A DNA stretch of 64,000 nt, from NCBI GenBank assembly GCA_027483345.1, contig JAIXUV010000034.1, positions 1 through 64,000 of the forward strand, given 5' to 3'. This document shows positions 1 to 35,033 of this stretch, piece by piece. The position numbers and the translations under genes were made by a program. Numbering within the stretch: position 1 is the first letter of the stretch; every line of letters begins with the position of its first letter. Below the pieces are notes generated by a model. That model saw only the letters and a program-made list of their open reading frames with translations, ran no database searches and had not been told where the DNA came from. The stretch comes from Verrucomicrobiales bacterium. Lineage in GTDB: Bacteria > Verrucomicrobiota > Verrucomicrobiia > Limisphaerales > UBA9464.

Positions 1-2801
1 GCGGCGATCTTCGGAGGGATCCGCGTCGCGGCCGCCGACGGCGTCTGCGCGAGGTGGCTGACCAGCTTCAGTCGCTGGCTCTCGCCACCCGAGAGCGTGT
101 TGATCGGCTGACCCAACCGGAGGTAGCCCAGCCCGACCTCGTCCAGGAGACGCAGCTTCTCCACGGCACGGCGCGCCGGGCGCGAGTCGGGAAACCCCGA
201 GAGGAAAGCCACGGCATCCTCCACCGTCGCCTCCAGGAGGTCGGCCACGGACAACGCCTGTCCCGCTGGCGCGGTGATGCGGACACTGGCGACGTGCTCG
301 CGGAAGCGTCGGCCGTTGCAAGCCGGGCACCGGATGAAGATGTCGCTCAGGAACTGCATCTCGATCTTCTCGTGGCCCGCGCCGCGGCACTGTTCGCACT
401 GGCCGAGCTGCGAGTTGAAGCTGAAGTGTCCCGGCTGCAGACCGAGGGACTTCGCGACGTCGCTTGAGGCGAAGAAGTCGCGGATGTCATCGAACGCCCC
501 GATGTAGACCGCCGGATTCGAACGCGGCGTGCGGCCCAATGATGTCTGGTCCACCAGCACCACCGCACCGAGGTTCTCCGCCCCTTCCAGCTCCGCGGAG
601 GCCAGGGCTCCGGCAGCCTCGTCGAGGGACTCGCCATCGACCTCCTCCTCCAAGGCCTGCGCCGCACCGGTGCCCGCAAGCCGCGCCTGGAGCAGCGGCA
701 GCAGGGCCTCGCGGACGAGCGTGGACTTTCCGGAACCGCTGACGCCGCTGATGCCGACCAGCCTTCCCAAGGGGATCTCCACGGAGAGGTCCCGGAGGTT
801 GTTGGCCGTGACGCCCTTCAGACGCAGCGTCTCGGACCGGCCGGTGGCCGTGTATCGGCTCCGGGTCGGGAGGGCGTCTTCCATCGACATGGACGGCAGG
901 CTTGTCCCGATCGCCGACAGGGAGACCGGGCGGCGTCTTGGCAGCTCGATGCGGCGGCGTCCGGTGAGGAAGTCGGCGGTGAGCGAACCCTCGGCCCGGG
1001 CCAACTGCGAAGCGGGGCCTTGGAAGACGACCTGGCCGCCGGATTCACCATGGCCGGGACCGATGTCCACGATCCGATCCGCGGCCCGCATGACGGCGGA
1101 CTCGTGTTCGACGACGACGACCGTGTTCCCCAGGTCGCGTAGGCGCTCGAGGATCCGGATCAGCCGGACGGTGTCCCGGGCATGGAGTCCGACGCTCGGT
1201 TCGTCGAGCACGTACAGCGTGTTGACGAGGCGCGTCCCAAGGCAGGTCGTGAGGTTCACCCGTTCCGTCTCTCCGCCGCTCAGCGTGCGGGTGGCGCGGT
1301 CCAAGGTGAGATAGCCCAGTCCGACCTCGAGGAGGTAGTCGAGCCGCGTTCGCACCTCGCGGAGGGCCATCCCGACCGGATCGCGTCCGGAATGACGGGA
1401 TTGCTCCAGCAGTCGAAGGATCAGGACGGCAGCGTCGGCGACCGGCAACGCATAGAACCCGGCCAGGTCCATCGCCACGGTTTCACCCGGCGGCGTCCAT
1501 CGATAGAGAAGCGACTCCTGCTTGAAGCGCTTCCCTTCGCAGACGGTGCAACGCCGGTAGCTCCGATATCGGGCGAGCAGCACCCGCACGTGCATCTTGT
1601 AGGCCTTGCCTTCCAGCCACCGGAAATAGCCACGGACACCGTACCAGCTCTTCGGCCACGCGTTCTCCGGATCCTCCGGATCATGGCCCGGGTCGCCTTC
1701 CATCAACCACCGCTGCTGCGCTTCCGTCATGCGGTTGAACGGGACATCGGTGGGGATGCCCCGCTTCCGGGCCATCCTCATCATGTCCGCCTGGCACTCG
1801 GCGCCGGACTCGGTCTGCCAGGGCTTCACCACACCTTGGGAAAGCGACTTCGAGCGGTCCGGCAGCGCCAGGTCGGGATCGATGGAGATGACCCTTCCGA
1901 ACCCCTTGCACGCCGGGCAGGCGCCCACGGGATGGTTGAACGAGAAGAGCGCCGGCGTGGGCTCCGCGTACTCGAGGTCGCAGGCGGCGCAATGGTGTCC
2001 CTTGGAGAAATGGCCGACCGAGGACCAGAGCTTACCCCCGTCGGCGGAACCCAAGACCGTCAGGCGCCCCTGCCCGAAGTGGTAGGCCTGCTCGCACGCC
2101 TCGACGAAGCGGTTCCGCGAGCCGGATGCCATTCGGACCCGGTCGGCGACCACGGTCAGTCGTCCTGCGATACCCTTCGAGGACGACGCGGCGGCTTCTT
2201 CCACGCGCAGCACGGCGCCTCCGGCGACGATCCGCTGGAAGCCCTGCTTGGAAACCAACGCCAACTGCTCGGTGAGCGGGATCTTGTCCGAGAGCGGCAG
2301 GTCGAAGGCGACCAGCAGGTCCGCGCCGGCGGCCGAATCCTTGGAAACGCGCTCCCAAACCGCCTCGGGCGGCTCCCTACGGACGGGTCGGGCGCATTGA
2401 CGGCAATGGAGTCCCGCCAGATGCGGCCAAAGCACCTTCATGTGGTCGCACAGCTCGGTCATCGTGCCGACCGTGCTGCGGGTGGTCCGGACGGCGTTGC
2501 GCTGTTCGATCGCGATCGCGGGCGGGATGTTCTCGATGCGATCCACCGCCGGCTTGTCCATGCGGTCGAAGAACTGGCGGGCGTAGGGCGAGAACGTCTC
2601 GATGTAACGGCGCTGTCCCTCGGCGTAGAGCGTCTCGAACGCCAGCGAACTCTTGCCGGAGCCGCTGAGACCGGTGACCACGATCAGTTCACCGAGGGGA
2701 AGGTCGAGGTCGAAACCCTTGAGGTTGTTCTGACGGACACCGCGGAGACGGATGCAGTCGGGACGGGATTCGTGGGTGTCGGGACGTGCGGGATCCGGCA
2801 T
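1..2801 (-). CDS. uvrA: UvrA excinuclease subunit A, divergent type (3' end beyond window)
   Basis: Damage-recognition ATPase of UvrABC nucleotide excision repair. The frame is open from an ATG at 2801 to the left edge (933 codons), so the C-terminus is missing. Seen: Walker [10 protein letters not shown] at residues 44-52, first ABC signature LSGGETER at 507-514 followed by [13 protein letters not shown], second Walker [10 protein letters not shown] from 686, a Cys4 zinc module (CEQC ... CPAC), [11 protein letters not shown], and second signature LSGGESQR at 903-910. The insertion-domain region has further CxxC pairs (CRQC, CAAC) and [13 protein letters not shown]. The signature [11 protein letters not shown] and the long acidic insert after the second Walker A differ from E. 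coli-type UvrA, and the second signature lies further downstream than in a 940-residue UvrA. It could be the larger UvrA class or one half of a tandem UvrA as in Chlamydia; the window cannot tell. Confidence 0.93.
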
Positions 2802-28614: not shown

Positions 28615-28869
28615 ATGAAACCCAAACACACACGGCTGTTCGTCAAACCCGGTTGCCCCTGGTGCGAGGAGGTCATCGAATGGCTCGATTCCCACGGTTA
28701 CGTCTACGAGACCCTGGACGTGATCCGGAACTCCGCGGCACGGGCCGAAATGCTGTCGTTGACCGGCCAGTCCAAGGCACCGTCCATCGAGCTCGACGGC
28801 CACGTGCTGGCGGACTTCGGCGCCGACGAACTCGAGGAGTGGCTTCGTCCCCTTGGGTACGAAACCTGA
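28615..28869 (+). CDS. Glutaredoxin-family protein (CPWC)
   Basis: 84 residues with the thioredoxin fold of glutaredoxins: LFVKPGCPWCEEVIEWLDSHG holds a dithiol CPWC site; SKAPSIELDGHVLADFGADEL contains the cis-Pro (AP) and the G/D motif for glutathione contact. CPWC rather than CPYC is common in glutaredoxin-like reductants of this group. An upstream TTG (28594) overlapping the hom stop would add seven residues; ATG at 28615 fits the fold. Likely in one operon with hom. Confidence 0.88.
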   Translation: MKPKHTRLFVKPGCPWCEEVIEWLDSHGYVYETLDVIRNSAARAEMLSLTGQSKAPSIELDGHVLADFGADELEEWLRPLGYET

Positions 28870-28933
28870 AGAAGAGGTGGGAGGACGCTTGCCGGCACTG
28901 GAGTTTCTTCCGGGAACCGGCGACGCTTCACCC

Positions 28934-29695
28934 ATGAAGATGTTGCTGACGACGGCCCTCTCGCTCACCGCGGTCGCAGGCGTTTCCATGGCCCAAGTCG
29001 TGTATTCCGGCGGACTCGGGACCTCCATGGCAGACCAGGGATGGGCCTACCAGGCCAGCACGGTTCCCGAAGGAGGCACGGCGTCCGCGACGACCGGATT
29101 CTCTGGTGGCGCGACCGTGGGCAACACCACACCGGCGATCACGGATCGCGCAGGTTGGGCCTACGGCAGGACGATCGCGCCCTCGTTCCCGATTCTGGAC
29201 AGGTCGACGGGGTACACCGTAACCCTCGATCTTTCCGTCGGCTCCGAGAACCACTCGAGCAACGACCGGGCCGGCTTCAGTTGGACCACCATGGGTTCCG
29301 ACGGGTTCGGCGTGGAGTTCGGCTTCCACGGAGACAGCGTGTGGGCCCAGGGAACCACGCCCACGGTCTTCACACGGGCCGAGTCTGCCACCACGGACAC
29401 CTCGATCCGGAACACCTACACCCTCTCGGTTTTCGGATCGGGCTACACCCTCGCCAACTCCGGAGGGACGCTGCTGACCGGAAGCCTGCGGAACTACGCT
29501 GGAGCCGGTGCTCCGGCGATCCCGTACGCGACGTTCCAGAACTACATCTTCCTGGGCGACAACACCGCGGCCGCCGCGGCGACCTATTCGATCTACGAGG
29601 TCGCCGTCGCGGTGCCGGAACCGGACCGGATGGCGGTGATCGCGGGCATGATGATGATCCCCGCACTGCGGTTCCTCCGGCGCGCACGGCGCTGA
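28934..29695 (+). CDS. PEP-CTERM surface protein
   Basis: 253 residues. Cleavable signal peptide MKMLLTTALSLTAVAGVSMA. The body is rich in Gly/Ser/Thr and beta-strand, similar to LamG/jelly-roll surface proteins (YTVTLDLSVGSENHS). The end is VPEPDRMAVIAG..., a VPEP motif, a hydrophobic helix and a basic tail (RFLRRARR), the signal for exosortase sorting to the envelope or exopolysaccharide. No catalytic motif seen. No exosortase (epsH/xrtA) gene lies in this window. Confidence 0.85.
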   Translation: MKMLLTTALSLTAVAGVSMAQVVYSGGLGTSMADQGWAYQASTVPEGGTASATTGFSGGATVGNTTPAITDRAGWAYGRTIAPSFPILDRSTGYTVTLDLSVGSENHSSNDRAGFSWTTMGSDGFGVEFGFHGDSVWAQGTTPTVFTRAESATTDTSIRNTYTLSVFGSGYTLANSGGTLLTGSLRNYAGAGAPAIPYATFQNYIFLGDNTAAAAATYSIYEVAVAVPEPDRMAVIAGMMMIPALRFLRRARR

Positions 29696-29823: not shown

Positions 29824-30513
29824 TCAGGCCGACTCGTACCGGCGACGGAGTTCGTCCGGCGGAGTGCCGGCGGCATGGGCAGCGAGGATCCGGGCCATGA
29901 GCAGGTAAGTGCGGAAGACGCCACGTCGACGAAACCGCCGTGCCGAGGTGCTGACGACTTCTCCGAGCAGGACGATCCTTCCCACGTTCCGAAGACGCCG
30001 GACCAACTCGAACTCCTCCATCAACGGCAGGTCGGGACAACCGCCCACGGACTCCAAGGCGCTTCTGCGGACCCAGATCGCCTGGTCGGCGAAGGGTCGA
30101 CAGGTGAGTTGGAACCAGAGCCAGGAGCGGAACCGCGCCCCACGCATGCACCACGGGGCGTCCCGGAAACGCTTTTGGAAGGCGCCGCCCACGACCGGAT
30201 TCGAAATCGCGGACCGTTCCAGCGCCGCTTCGATCGCACGTCCCGCACCCCACGGCAGCCAGGTGTCCGCGTGGAGGAACAGGACGACATCCGACTGCAC
30301 GGCGAGAGCGCCCACGCGGCATTGGAGTCCGCGCCCGCGGGCGGATGGGATCCATCGGCATCCCCGGGCGCGAGCCAACGCCTCCGTCCCATCGGTGCTG
30401 CCACCATCCACGACCAGCACCTCGGAGACCTCCGGAACCTGGAAGACGGAATCGAGGGCACCCGGCAGGGACCTCGACTCATTCAGGGTCGGGATCACGA
30501 CGGACAGGGTCAT
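29824..30513 (-). CDS. Glycosyltransferase family 2, TIGR04283-like
   Basis: 229 residues, GT-A fold. SVVIPTLNESRSLPGALDS at the N-terminus, VLVVDGGSTDGTEALAR with the nucleotide-binding Asp pair, VLFLHADTWLPWGAG with the D-x-D-like DT region, and LPLMEEFELVRRLRNVG with the catalytic-base region. The overall pattern, including the FFRDAPWCMRGARFRSWLWF-type middle, fits the TIGR04283 branch, some of which are linked to arsenosugar synthesis. No arsenic genes are nearby, so the acceptor is unknown. Soluble or peripheral. Confidence 0.82.
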   Translation of the reverse strand: MTLSVVIPTLNESRSLPGALDSVFQVPEVSEVLVVDGGSTDGTEALARARGCRWIPSARGRGLQCRVGALAVQSDVVLFLHADTWLPWGAGRAIEAALERSAISNPVVGGAFQKRFRDAPWCMRGARFRSWLWFQLTCRPFADQAIWVRRSALESVGGCPDLPLMEEFELVRRLRNVGRIVLLGEVVSTSARRFRRRGVFRTYLLMARILAAHAAGTPPDELRRRYESA

Positions 30514-31654: not shown

Positions 31655-31848
31655 GCGTTCTTTGTCAGGGCCGGACCCGACGTCCGGCCTCGATCAAACA
31701 TCATTGGAGCTGCGGGAACGCCGTGAGAATCGGCGACGGTTGCGCCACTGTATCGGGTTACAAACCCCCCTGGTCATCGAGACAGCCACTGGAAGCGATT
31801 CCGGGAAGGCGGGGGGCGAGGTTGAGATCCGTAGTCAGGATATCGCGC
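31655..31848 (+). promoter_or_regulatory. Cobalamin riboswitch
   Basis: Recognised by its conserved blocks in order. A GC-rich hairpin (GCCGGAC/GTCCGGC, 31670-31688); GCGGGAACGCCGTGAGAATC at 31712-31731, whose CGCCG/CGGCG arms form P3; GGTTGCGCCACTGTA at about 31738-31752 (the core P5/L5 strand); AGCCACTGG at about 31784-31792; GGGAAGG at 31803-31809; and the B12 box TTGAGATCCGTAGTCAGGAT at about 31822-31841. This is the adenosylcobalamin-type aptamer; it switches expression off when B12 is plentiful. It points toward the PEP-CTERM gene at 32091. Boundaries are approximate. Confidence 0.9.
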
Positions 31849-31863
31849 CAGTGATGCTCGTCC

Positions 31864-31905
31864 GATCCCGGGAACAACCCGGGGTCACTTCGCCGCAAAG
31901 CGAAG
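31864..31905 (+). promoter_or_regulatory. Hairpins after riboswitch, candidate expression platform
   Basis: Two stems right after the aptamer: GATCCCGGG/CCCGGGGTC (31864-31886, nine pairs with one G-T, loop AACAA) and CTTCGC/GCGAAG (31888-31905). Neither is followed by a T-run, so a plain intrinsic terminator is not evident; a Rho-linked or anti-termination arrangement is possible. About 185 bases then separate them from the start at 32091, in which no gene was recognised. Confidence 0.45.
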
Positions 31906-32090
31906 GATGGAGCCAGGACTGCCCCGATCGACCGGTTGGGGCGGAGCATGCGAATGTCCGACGCCTTCATTCACTGCCTTGCCGGGGATGGAGGCGTTTC
32001 CAATTCCAGGAACCCTTCAGCCGCCGGCCCTGGTCTCACATCGACACCCCCACCATGACGGAACCGCATGGAGGGATCGTGAAAGAGACC

Positions 32091-32915
32091 ATGAAACCGA
32101 TCCACAGACTCGCCGGGACCGCCGCCGGCATCCTCACCGCCACATCCTTGTTCGCGCAGTACGCGACCACGGTTGTCGACTACATCCCCGGTGCCGGATT
32201 CTCCGCCACCCGCACCAATGCCATCGCCGCACTCGGCGAGCCCAGCCGGATCACTCCGGGCGACTTCGGTGGGCCGGTGGACCCGTTCGCCCCGCCCTAC
32301 ACGGCCACGCAATTGGTCAGCGTCGGCGCCGGCGGTTCCATCACCGTCGGTTTCGCCAATCCCATCCGCAACGACCCCGCCAACCCATACGGCATCGACT
32401 TCAACGTTTTCGGCGGCGGCGGCTTCCTCGTCACCAACGCGTTCGACGCCAACTTCAGCTACATCGGGGTCCCGTCCACCGATGGAACCCTGTTCAATCC
32501 CAACGGCGGCAGCACCCGCGTCAGCGTCAGTCCGGACGGCTCCAACTGGTTCGTCCTCGACCCGGCGCTGGCGCCGAAGGTCGACGACCTTTTCCCGACG
32601 GATGGCAGCGGTGACTTCACGCTCCCCGTCCCGCCCTCCCTCCGGTCGGAGCCCCTCGGCGGACTCACGTTGGCCGACGTGCGGATCCGCTACGCCGGTT
32701 CGGCGGGAGGCGCCGGCTACGACCTCGGCTGGGCCCGTGCCTCCGGAGGCGGTCCGGTGTCCCTCGACAGCGTCTCGTTCGTCCGGATCGAAGTGTTGAG
32801 CGGCCGCTCGGAGATCGACGGCTTCGCCGCGGTCGGCGCCGTCCCGGAACCGTCGACCATCGCCCTGTTCGCCGTCGGCGCACTGGCCTGCCTCGGATTC
32901 CAACGTAACCGCTGA
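32091..32915 (+). CDS. PEP-CTERM surface protein under B12 riboswitch
   Basis: 274 residues. Signal peptide MKPIHRLAGTAAGILTATSLFA; an alternative ATG 12 codons upstream (32054) gives a less natural signal. The body shows LGEPSRITPGDFGGPVDPF, ITVGFANPIRNDPANPYGID and GYDLGWARA, a conserved-looking domain with many Gly, Asp and Pro and no known catalytic motif. The C-terminus is VPEPSTIALFAVGALACLGF plus QRNR, a canonical PEP-CTERM signal, so the protein should be exported and sorted by exosortase to the outer surface. Placement behind a cobalamin riboswitch suggests a part in corrinoid capture or a B12-sparing response; that is inference only. Confidence 0.85.
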   Translation: MKPIHRLAGTAAGILTATSLFAQYATTVVDYIPGAGFSATRTNAIAALGEPSRITPGDFGGPVDPFAPPYTATQLVSVGAGGSITVGFANPIRNDPANPYGIDFNVFGGGGFLVTNAFDANFSYIGVPSTDGTLFNPNGGSTRVSVSPDGSNWFVLDPALAPKVDDLFPTDGSGDFTLPVPPSLRSEPLGGLTLADVRIRYAGSAGGAGYDLGWARASGGGPVSLDSVSFVRIEVLSGRSEIDGFAAVGAVPEPSTIALFAVGALACLGFQRNR

Positions 32916-32944
32916 AGACCCTCCGCTTGAATCCGACGGACTCC

Positions 32945-33304
32945 ATGAAGGCCAAGGGACAGGTCGCGCACCACGCGTCGGCCTGTCCCCTTTGCGGCGG
33001 TGAAAACGCCTGCGGCGCGGACCGCATCTCGACGGGCGGAACCTGCTGGTGCCAAAAGGTTGAGATCCCTGCCGTCCTGGCCGGGAAGGTCGGCGCCACT
33101 GGGAGCTGCCTTTGCCGCGGGTGCATCGCGGAACACCGGAAGCAAACCCGCTGGATGCCGCGCGCCGAGCCGTCGGAGACCTATCAGGACGCTGCCGGGA
33201 GACTGGTCTTCCGGGCCGCCTACCACCTGCGTCGGGGCTACTGCTGCGGCAATGGCTGCAGGCACTGCCCCTTTGGCTTCACCACCCCGCTTCCGGAACC
33301 ATGA
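32945..33304 (+). CDS. Cys-rich CWC / DUF5522 protein
   Basis: 119 residues. The first half is a Cys-rich CWC domain: ACPLCGGENACG ... GGTCWCQKVEIP ... SCLCRGCIAEH. The second half is DUF5522-like, ending GYCCGNGCRHCPFGF. With about twelve Cys it is very likely a metal-binding protein. No signal peptide, so cytosolic. Both domain families have unknown function. A TTG at 32927 would add six residues. It starts 29 bases after the PEP-CTERM stop with no terminator between, and its stop overlaps the next start (ATGA). Confidence 0.88.
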   Translation: MKAKGQVAHHASACPLCGGENACGADRISTGGTCWCQKVEIPAVLAGKVGATGSCLCRGCIAEHRKQTRWMPRAEPSETYQDAAGRLVFRAAYHLRRGYCCGNGCRHCPFGFTTPLPEP

Positions 33305-34296
33305 GGAACTGCGTTCAGCCAAAGCCGACCTTCGCGGTCCTGCTTTTGACGGCGGCCTCGGCAGCCCTCGCCACCAACGCAGCGGAGCGGTTGTCCGAGG
33401 ACTTCTCGAAGCCTCCCCAGCAGTCGGGCTGGATCCGCTTCGGAGACACGGAGCTGTCCCGTTGGGATTCCGTGGGGCAGCAGCTGGAATTCACCTGGGA
33501 TTCCTCCCGCCCCAACAGCGGGATCGCCCATCGCCTGCCCCGGGTCATGACCGACAAGGACGACCTGGCCTTCGCCTTCGACCTCGAGCTGTTGTCCCAT
33601 GAAGTCGGCGTCGACCCGGCCCGGCCATCGACCTTTCAGATCGCCGCGGGACTGGTCCGCTTGGATGCGGTTCGTTCCTTGGATTACGTGCGGGGTGCTT
33701 TGCCGGGACCCCGTGACACCCTTGAATGGACTTGGTTCGGGGCGAAGGACCCCATCGCCGCGTCGATCTCGCCGACGGTCATTCCATCGGATGGCCGGCT
33801 TCCTTGGGGCTACGCCGACAGCTTCGTCACGCTGGAGGTCGGGACCCGCTACCGGTTCGACGTCCAGTACACGGCCTCCGACCGGACGTTGAGGCTACGC
33901 ATGAAGACCGGCAGCGAACCCGGTCCATCCCTGGACAGCATCGTCCTGCCTCCGGCGTTCACCGGGTTCTCGGTCGACGCCTTCGCGATCTGCAGCTACT
34001 CGGCGCAGGGCCAGCATCCGCTCTTCGGAGGATCCGTCCTTGCCCGTGCCGTGGTCGACAACTTGCTGATCACCGTCCCAGCCCCGCCGGTGGAACTGGT
34101 CCGGATCGACGGCAAGCAGGTCTCCTTCCGGGCTTCGAAGGGTTGGCGATACCGGCTGGAGGCCTCCGGGGATCTCCAGGAATGGAGCGTGGTCGACACC
34201 GTGGAACCCACGGAGGACGGAGTGGTCCGCATGTCCGACCTGCGCGATGCGGTTTTCCGGGAGCAGTTCTATCGCGTTCGCGCGGTTCGGCCATGA
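33301..34296 (+). CDS. Secreted protein with jelly-roll-like body and C-terminal module
   Basis: 331 residues. Signal peptide about 1-28 (FAVLLLTAASAALATNAA). The body ERLSEDFSKPPQQSGWIRFGD and LEFTWDSSRPNSGIAHRLPR resembles a concanavalin-like fold seen in surface proteins of the phylum. The final 60 residues (VSFRASKGWRYRLEASGDLQ ... FYRVRAV) are the same kind of short beta module as in the secreted protein at 17785-18669. Function unknown. Coupled by ATGA overlaps to the Cys-rich gene before and the pseudopilin after. Confidence 0.78.
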   Translation: MRNCVQPKPTFAVLLLTAASAALATNAAERLSEDFSKPPQQSGWIRFGDTELSRWDSVGQQLEFTWDSSRPNSGIAHRLPRVMTDKDDLAFAFDLELLSHEVGVDPARPSTFQIAAGLVRLDAVRSLDYVRGALPGPRDTLEWTWFGAKDPIAASISPTVIPSDGRLPWGYADSFVTLEVGTRYRFDVQYTASDRTLRLRMKTGSEPGPSLDSIVLPPAFTGFSVDAFAICSYSAQGQHPLFGGSVLARAVVDNLLITVPAPPVELVRIDGKQVSFRASKGWRYRLEASGDLQEWSVVDTVEPTEDGVVRMSDLRDAVFREQFYRVRAVRP

Positions 34297-35033
34297 GCCA
34301 TGGGAGCCGCGAAGACTTTCGACAGGCCTTCACCTTGGTCGAACTCCTGGTGGTGGTCGCCGTGATCGGGATCCTCGCGGGACTTCTTTTGCCGACGTTG
34401 GGAAGCACACGTCAGGCAGCCGACAGGAGCCGATGCACTACCAACCTGCGTCAACTCGCCCTCGCGGCACAGCTCTATTGGGACGACCATGGAGGTCGCG
34501 CCTTTCCTGAACGCGGCGTGAGGACCAATGGTGGATGGATCTACTGGTTTGGTTGGCTGGCGGATGGCTCGGAAGGCCACCGCGAATTCGACCCGACCCG
34601 CGGCGCGCTGTGGCCGCACCTGCGCCAACAGTCGATCGGCGTTTGTCCCGCCCTTGACCGCTCGTCGGCACAGTTCAAGTCCAAGGCCTCCGGCGCCGCC
34701 TACGGCTACGGCTACAATCTCCTGGTGGGAACCCGCTCCGAAGCCGGCATCCGCATCCCAGAGATACGGAGCCCCACCGACCTCGCCGTCTTCGCGGACT
34801 GTGCCCAAGTCAACGACTTCCAGCCCCCGGCCTCGCCCTCGAATCCCATGCTCGAGGAGTTCTACTACTTCGACCTGCTGACGCCGTCGGTCCATTTCCG
34901 CCACCGCCGGCGCGCGCTCGCCGCGTTCGCTGATGGACACGTGGAACCGCAACGTCCCCAGGAGGGTTCGGCCGATCCCCGGATTCCGGGACAGCTCGTC
35001 GGTCGCCTGTCCGAGGACCGCGTCCGTCCCTGA
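34293..35033 (+). CDS. Type II secretion-like pseudopilin (H-X9-DG family)
   Basis: 246 residues. Prepilin leader then methylation-type N-terminus FTLVELLVVVAVIGILAGLL at about 13-32, with Glu at position 5 of the mature protein. The body begins SRCTTNLRQLALAAQLYWDD and ends with VHFRHRRRALAAFADGHVE, the H-X9-DG motif typical of planctomycete/verrucomicrobial pseudopilins. Such proteins form pseudopilus-like structures or sit in the inner membrane; these genomes carry many copies. Starts within the stop of the upstream gene (ATGA). About 146 bases to dnaB. Confidence 0.9.
   Translation: MSHGSREDFRQAFTLVELLVVVAVIGILAGLLLPTLGSTRQAADRSRCTTNLRQLALAAQLYWDDHGGRAFPERGVRTNGGWIYWFGWLADGSEGHREFDPTRGALWPHLRQQSIGVCPALDRSSAQFKSKASGAAYGYGYNLLVGTRSEAGIRIPEIRSPTDLAVFADCAQVNDFQPPASPSNPMLEEFYYFDLLTPSVHFRHRRRALAAFADGHVEPQRPQEGSADPRIPGQLVGRLSEDRVRP

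Follow-up and report, generated by a model that had tools for sequence, protein, structure and literature searches.

What a cobalamin riboswitch is doing in front of an exported, exosortase-sorted protein is the question raised by this locus. The preliminary description, made from the sequence alone, had claimed a cobalamin riboswitch before a PEP-CTERM protein and suggested a surface B12-scavenging protein, to be compared with the propeller protein BtuG. Our analysis showed that the riboswitch heads a four-gene operon conserved across the phylum. This operon is likely to be a B12-starvation system that captures corrinoids on the cell surface, although the binding and the surface location are both inferred. 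The features are collected in Table 1.

The aptamer matches the whole RF00174 model (1-189) with a score of 66.6 bits (gathering score 31.5; E 3e-14) and is the sole Rfam match at the gathering threshold in the window, by which we mean the whole 64 kb stretch of DNA that was analysed. Its sequence and structure meet the RF00174 criterion; cobalamin binding and gene regulation are inferred from the conserved aptamer, leader and gene order. One usual place for a cobalamin riboswitch is before a B12-independent isozyme such as class I ribonucleotide reductase. The only other cobalamin riboswitch in the source genome (L018, G000:C94, 5783-10224, 109.7 bits) precedes what we take to be, as read from the proteins, a class I ribonucleotide reductase pair, small subunit first and then large.

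Alignment of 14 leaders revealed a post-aptamer stretch common to all, including a covarying hairpin. The second hairpin is nearly invariant, with a U-A to G-C swap, and is accompanied by a GCCTTCATTC hairpin, often with T runs on its 3' side, and by long-range pairing of GAGGCCAG with CTGGTCTC. These conserved elements are compatible with a regulated terminator. The mode of control stays an inference, because the window leader has only a short T run and a consensus terminator scan listed no hairpin in it downstream of the aptamer. The direction of control (OFF with enough cobalamin) is also inferred, and no sigma-70 promoter was found by scan. As a separate observation, the leader sequence at 31888-32037 is unusually conserved across relatives (e.g., GAGAAGGATGAGGCCAG and CTGGTCTC), beyond the need of an ordinary terminator. 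Two other genes were noted just upstream and nearby in the window, one for a choice-of-anchor Y domain protein (28853-29695; NF050052, 134.8 bits, cut-off 80) and one on the minus strand for a glycosyltransferase (29824-30513) with an above cut-off match to TIGR04283 (arsenosugar biosynthesis).

Table 1. Features of the riboswitch-headed operon in the window, with residue ranges for the domains of the first protein.
Feature	Position	Strand	Basis
Cobalamin riboswitch aptamer (RF00174)	31688-31866	+	Rfam full model, kept in relatives
Leader after aptamer, putative expression platform	31867-32037	+	14-leader alignment, consensus fold with covariation, window-leader fold
Leader hairpin	31867-31883	+	
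Leader hairpin	31888-31905	+	
Terminator-like hairpin, short T run	31961-31999	+	
Long-range pairing	about 31909-31917 with 32029-32037	+	
BtuH-like exported protein, 274 aa	32091-32915	+	Pfam PEP-CTERM, profile match, AlphaFold, Foldseek
Signal region	residues about 1-25		
BtuH-like domain	residues about 26-248		
PEP-CTERM	residues 250-272		
CWC/DUF5522 cysteine-rich protein	32927-33304	+	PF14375 and PF17653 above cut-off, recurs in relatives
Exported lectin-fold (ConA-like) protein, 331 aa	33301-34296	+	AlphaFold, Foldseek, operon conservation
H-X9-DG pseudopilin, 246 aa	34293-35033	+	PF07963 and PF07596 above cut-off, TIGR02532

Homologues of the 274-aa protein were found in 14 of 113 genomes of the class, and the seven closest ones sampled (L004-L010) all have RF00174 upstream on the same strand. 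Scanning public genomes gave 80 homologous loci; a few of the genomes are near-identical, so the loci do not count as 80 independent events. A covariance model based on 12 riboswitches detected a riboswitch upstream on the same strand in 78 of the loci, i.e., in 78 of the 78 testable ones, with a median distance to the assigned start of 231 bases; the remaining two were untestable (N runs or a contig edge). For more distant homologues in other parts of the phylum, Rfam alone places RF00174 upstream in 12 of 15 loci, and another B12 riboswitch class, RF01482, occupies the same place in two marine members. In these two (L078 5674-5809 and L090 5721-5856), the AdoCbl riboswitch class replaces RF00174 before the same operon. 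The 23 genomes checked hold 0-2 cobalamin riboswitches each, and most operon-bearing genomes hold just one. Because riboswitches are so few per genome and every testable locus has one upstream, chance is no serious explanation of the link. The preliminary description had looked to an RNA model score and to an association of homologues with B12 riboswitches or corrinoid genes; both held, the score being well above threshold and the homologues lying almost always behind B12 riboswitches, some of them beside corrinoid genes. It was also observed that metagenome bins titled Akkermansia muciniphila (L031, L034, L041, L044, L065, L072, L076 and others) hold Pedosphaera-like operons, so titled probably in error at species level, and L073, titled Omnitrophota, may likewise be mis-binned.

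The open frame of the first gene extends back into the aptamer, to 31662, and the plausible start is the ATG at 32091, 224 bases past the aptamer. Single-sequence searches of PDB, Pfam and NCBIfam with the 274-aa protein returned the PEP-CTERM signal or noise only, and by sequence its relation to BtuH was detected only with a family profile of 65 members. Against PDB, this profile found two credible chains, both of them B12-binding proteins of Bacteroides thetaiotaomicron: 8BLW chain B, the BtuG1 H-domain (E 1.1e-6), and 7BIZ, BtuH2 (E 0.023). The matching segments in the two are colinear, and the main 8BLW segments (435-479 and 612-637) fall within the C-terminal extension of BtuG1, which has about 250 residues and was named the H-domain and described as homologous to BtuH2 by its authors (PMC10404256). 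The AlphaFold model of the protein (pLDDT 91) gave a consistent picture in a Foldseek search of 350,542 PDB chains, where BtuG1 and BtuH2 chains rank first to third (E 1.3e-7 to 1.1e-4) and the next-best match has E 9e-3. The relation is distant, because the overall superposition with the BtuH relatives is poor (15-16% identity, TM about 0.4, rmsd about 12 A). The protein is thus homologous, distantly and without a comparison of contact residues, to the BtuH C-terminal B12-binding domain. BtuH2 binds B12 via its BtuH domain (PMC8941943); B12 binding by the 274-aa protein is inferred, no binding data being available.

Two other assignments were rejected. Neither the predicted fold nor the matches in PDB agree with a BtuG-type propeller: the model is of the beta sandwich type without propeller repeats, and the BtuG1 match lies in the H-domain, outside the propeller. 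The comparison with BtuG made in the preliminary description therefore failed, the relative being the BtuH B12-binding domain. Membership in DUF4465/BtuJ was rejected as well, as Pfam gave no PF14717 match in either the BtuH-like or the lectin-fold protein.

At the other end of the protein, the PEP-CTERM motif scores 26.4 bits with Pfam (cut-off 20.7) and 19.1 with NCBIfam TIGR02595 (cut-off 16), and the AlphaFold model places a helix at residues 256-273. The source genome has three exosortase matches, candidates for processing the protein, and exosortases were present in 12 of 12 genomes checked. With a PEP motif, a transmembrane helix, a basic end and an exosortase in the genome, the protein meets the criterion for an exosortase substrate, and the claim of a riboswitch before a PEP-CTERM protein held. 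Its surface location is inferred, and some family members have no PEP-CTERM tail. A verrucomicrobial BtuH-like family bearing exosortase signals is new.

The preliminary description missed the rest of the operon, 32927-35033. The CWC/DUF5522 gene starts at TTG 32927 or ATG 32945, and ATGA overlaps at 33301 and 34293 join it to the lectin-fold and pseudopilin genes. The model of the lectin-fold protein (pLDDT 90) matched legume lectins and an alginate lyase in Foldseek, and in many relatives this protein is fused with the BtuH-like protein. No ligand is proposed for it, because a search of PDB by sequence with the family profile gave nothing credible and the model matched generic legume lectins. 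No TonB receptor gene is present in the window operon. Some related operons hold further genes: the operon of L082 adds DUF71, DUF6580 and BtuF-like genes, with similar genes in L076 and L083, and L152 has a BtuD-BtuC type fusion 3' of the pilin. Comparative work had earlier tied DUF71-B12 proteins to the salvage of B12 (PMC3541065). DUF6580, which could conceivably be an inner-membrane transporter, is also present outside the operon, in genomes with and without it. In G103, a weakly similar protein has a TonB receptor and genes of BtuF and BtuC type as its neighbours, and no Rfam riboswitch was found at threshold in this region.

Some loci depart from this arrangement. In L115 (1870-3158), L133 (1825-2910) and L125 (173-1357, minus strand) there is no BtuH-like gene and the lectin-fold protein comes first after the riboswitch, with a CWC protein and a prepilin after it in L115. 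A second uncharacterised riboswitch-linked domain, without a Pfam match and with a motif like DDIQLWTGSGSNRAALVIEW, was seen in L117 (293-1543, minus strand), L027 (8110-10299), L147 (165-812) and L152 (4765-6492, minus strand); in relatives it stands before, or is fused to, the BtuH-like domain.

The last gene encodes a pseudopilin with a prepilin N-terminus and a near-C-terminal H-X9-DG motif (H-RRRALAAFA-DG, HRRRALAAFADG), the latter read directly. By counts made by hand from the table of loci, it lies downstream on the same strand in 63 of the 80 loci, or 63 of the 67 with enough sequence, the contigs of the other 13 ending too soon; in four loci with enough sequence (L061, L075, L083 and L096) no recognised pseudopilin was found. 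It also lies downstream in distant relatives. The source genome has 70 prepilin-like matches, operon pilin included, and the operon pilin scores 565 bits against itself and 73 bits against the next-best match in that genome. In a quick FastTree analysis, a single group with support 88 unites 30 operon pilins, 27 of which are joined with support 95, and leaves out the 29 own-genome paralogues. One extra operon-labelled row falls outside the group, the second pilin of L054, some 4-5 kb downstream. The pilin is therefore likely to be a dedicated, co-inherited part of the operon, with modest FastTree support, and its role there is inferred. Also new is the conservation of a pseudopilin in an operon that has a B12 riboswitch and usually no BtuB; in the open-access literature searched, nothing relevant connected BtuH to Verrucomicrobia, or a cobalamin riboswitch to a pseudopilin or to PEP-CTERM.

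The B12-dependent activation domain of MetH was found in 16 of 17 genomes of the order, source genome included. FecCD-type permeases (BtuC family) gave only weak partial matches in the order (at most 52 bits), against roughly 120-310 bits for clear members elsewhere. These weak matches are inferred to be cross-matches to another ABC permease family, and the searched genomes of the order yielded no full-length BtuC-type permease. A total absence of TonB receptors is ruled out as an explanation by eight TonB plug-domain matches in the source genome; no receptor there reaches the cut-off of the BtuB model (best 84.6 of 599.7 bits). In L127 and L129, from genomes of the class without the operon, a riboswitch precedes a TonB receptor.

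In the capture reading, enough cobalamin would fold the aptamer and the leader would shut off expression, and under scarce B12 the operon genes would be made. The BtuH-like protein would then be exported, sorted by an exosortase via its PEP-CTERM tail, and bind corrinoids through its BtuH-like domain. The lectin-fold protein may help to anchor or extend it, and the pseudopilin may help to export, assemble or display the operon proteins or pass corrinoid inward. Corrinoid could cross the outer membrane through a TonB receptor whose gene lies elsewhere, or by a novel route, and MetH would be the likely user of the vitamin. This reading is supported by the conservation of the riboswitch, the BtuH profile and Foldseek matches, the corrinoid genes in some operons, MetH and the exosortases; we also take as support the riboswitch before a TonB receptor in L127 and L129, where the operon is absent. 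Against it stand the distant BtuH relation, the lack of binding data, the members without PEP-CTERM and the occurrence of DUF6580 outside the operon. The suggestion of a surface B12-scavenging protein is thus supported, with corrinoid binding and location still inferred.

Other explanations can be set against this one. That the riboswitch adjoins the gene by accident draws some support from the lack of a Pfam family in the 274-aa protein besides the sorting signal, and is all but excluded by the 78 of 78 testable loci, the 12 of 15 distant loci and the two riboswitch classes. The operon could instead serve a B12-regulated surface change under scarcity (adhesion, aggregation or vesicle release), e.g., attachment to B12-producing neighbours or particles, with the lectin-fold protein and pseudopilin as working parts and no B12 binding by the proteins. 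The resemblance of the lectin fold to carbohydrate-binding proteins and the conservation of the pseudopilin speak for it, as does the precedent of BtuL in B. thetaiotaomicron, a lipoprotein of a riboswitch operon that does not bind B12 and affects vesicle release (PMC12751083), because of which co-regulation is no proof of binding. We regard it as unlikely, the nearest solved relatives of the first protein both being B12-binding domains and BtuF-like, DUF71 and BtuCD-like genes occurring in some operons.

In a closer contender the operon serves B12 uptake, with the surface protein doing no more than passing corrinoid on to a TonB receptor whose gene lies elsewhere; the pseudopilin, one of a large family of paralogues, would be an unrelated passenger. 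The eight plug-domain and 70 prepilin-like matches of the source genome and the four loci without a recognised pilin favour it. However, the operon pilins cluster apart from their own-genome paralogues and recur in 63 of 67 loci and in distant relatives, and no source-genome receptor meets the BtuB cut-off, so that we lean slightly against this view. At the other extreme, a bolder reading that is no more than possible sees a new kind of B12 acquisition machine, in which surface corrinoid-binding proteins, together with a dedicated pseudopilin whose pseudopilus displays, exports or retracts them, replace the riboswitch-controlled BtuB/BtuCD route.

Corrinoid capture, the preferred reading, can be set beside systems already described. 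BtuH2 and the BtuG1 H-domain of B. thetaiotaomicron (7BIZ, 8BLW; PMC8941943, PMC10404256) are related by profile and fold and are likewise exported and made under a B12 riboswitch. In contrast to BtuH2, the window protein is a single-domain PEP-CTERM protein, not a lipoprotein, and lacks both PKD and propeller domains; Bacteroidetes also have BtuH homologues that carry no additional domain (PMC8941943). The operon in this order lacks btuB and has a lectin-fold protein and a pseudopilin following; a distant relative in G103 does adjoin a TonB receptor. The BtuG surface propeller shares the proposed role in surface B12 capture and differs in fold. DUF4465/BtuJ proteins (PMC12751083, PMC13398666) are likewise B12-linked and exported, but they have been described next to TonB and ABC transporters rather than pseudopilins, and the operon proteins tested have no DUF4465 match. 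Such proteins also occur in Verrucomicrobiota (Coraliomargarita, Haloferula). The operon pilin shares the prepilin N-terminus and H-X9-DG motif of other H-X9-DG pseudopilins, whereas its subgroup travels with the B12-riboswitch operon, apart from the sampled own-genome paralogues. DUF71 is found in some related operons as in known B12 salvage clusters (PMC3541065), but only in some members, and is absent from the window operon.

In the general picture, the surface B12-capture proteins BtuG, BtuH and BtuJ were found in gut Bacteroides, working beside BtuB. A BtuH-like domain, carried by proteins with exosortase signals, appears to be in use in a second phylum, one that is common in soil and fresh water, and a pilus-type subunit shares the B12-controlled operon with it. 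The same gene set recurs across the phylum and looks like an undescribed surface B12-scavenging system, with binding inferred. It offers a likely ligand for one group among the many PEP-CTERM proteins of no known function and a likely ligand link for one clade of H-X9-DG pseudopilins, and it makes testable the question of how Verrucomicrobiota that depend on B12 import the vitamin when searches reveal no BtuC.
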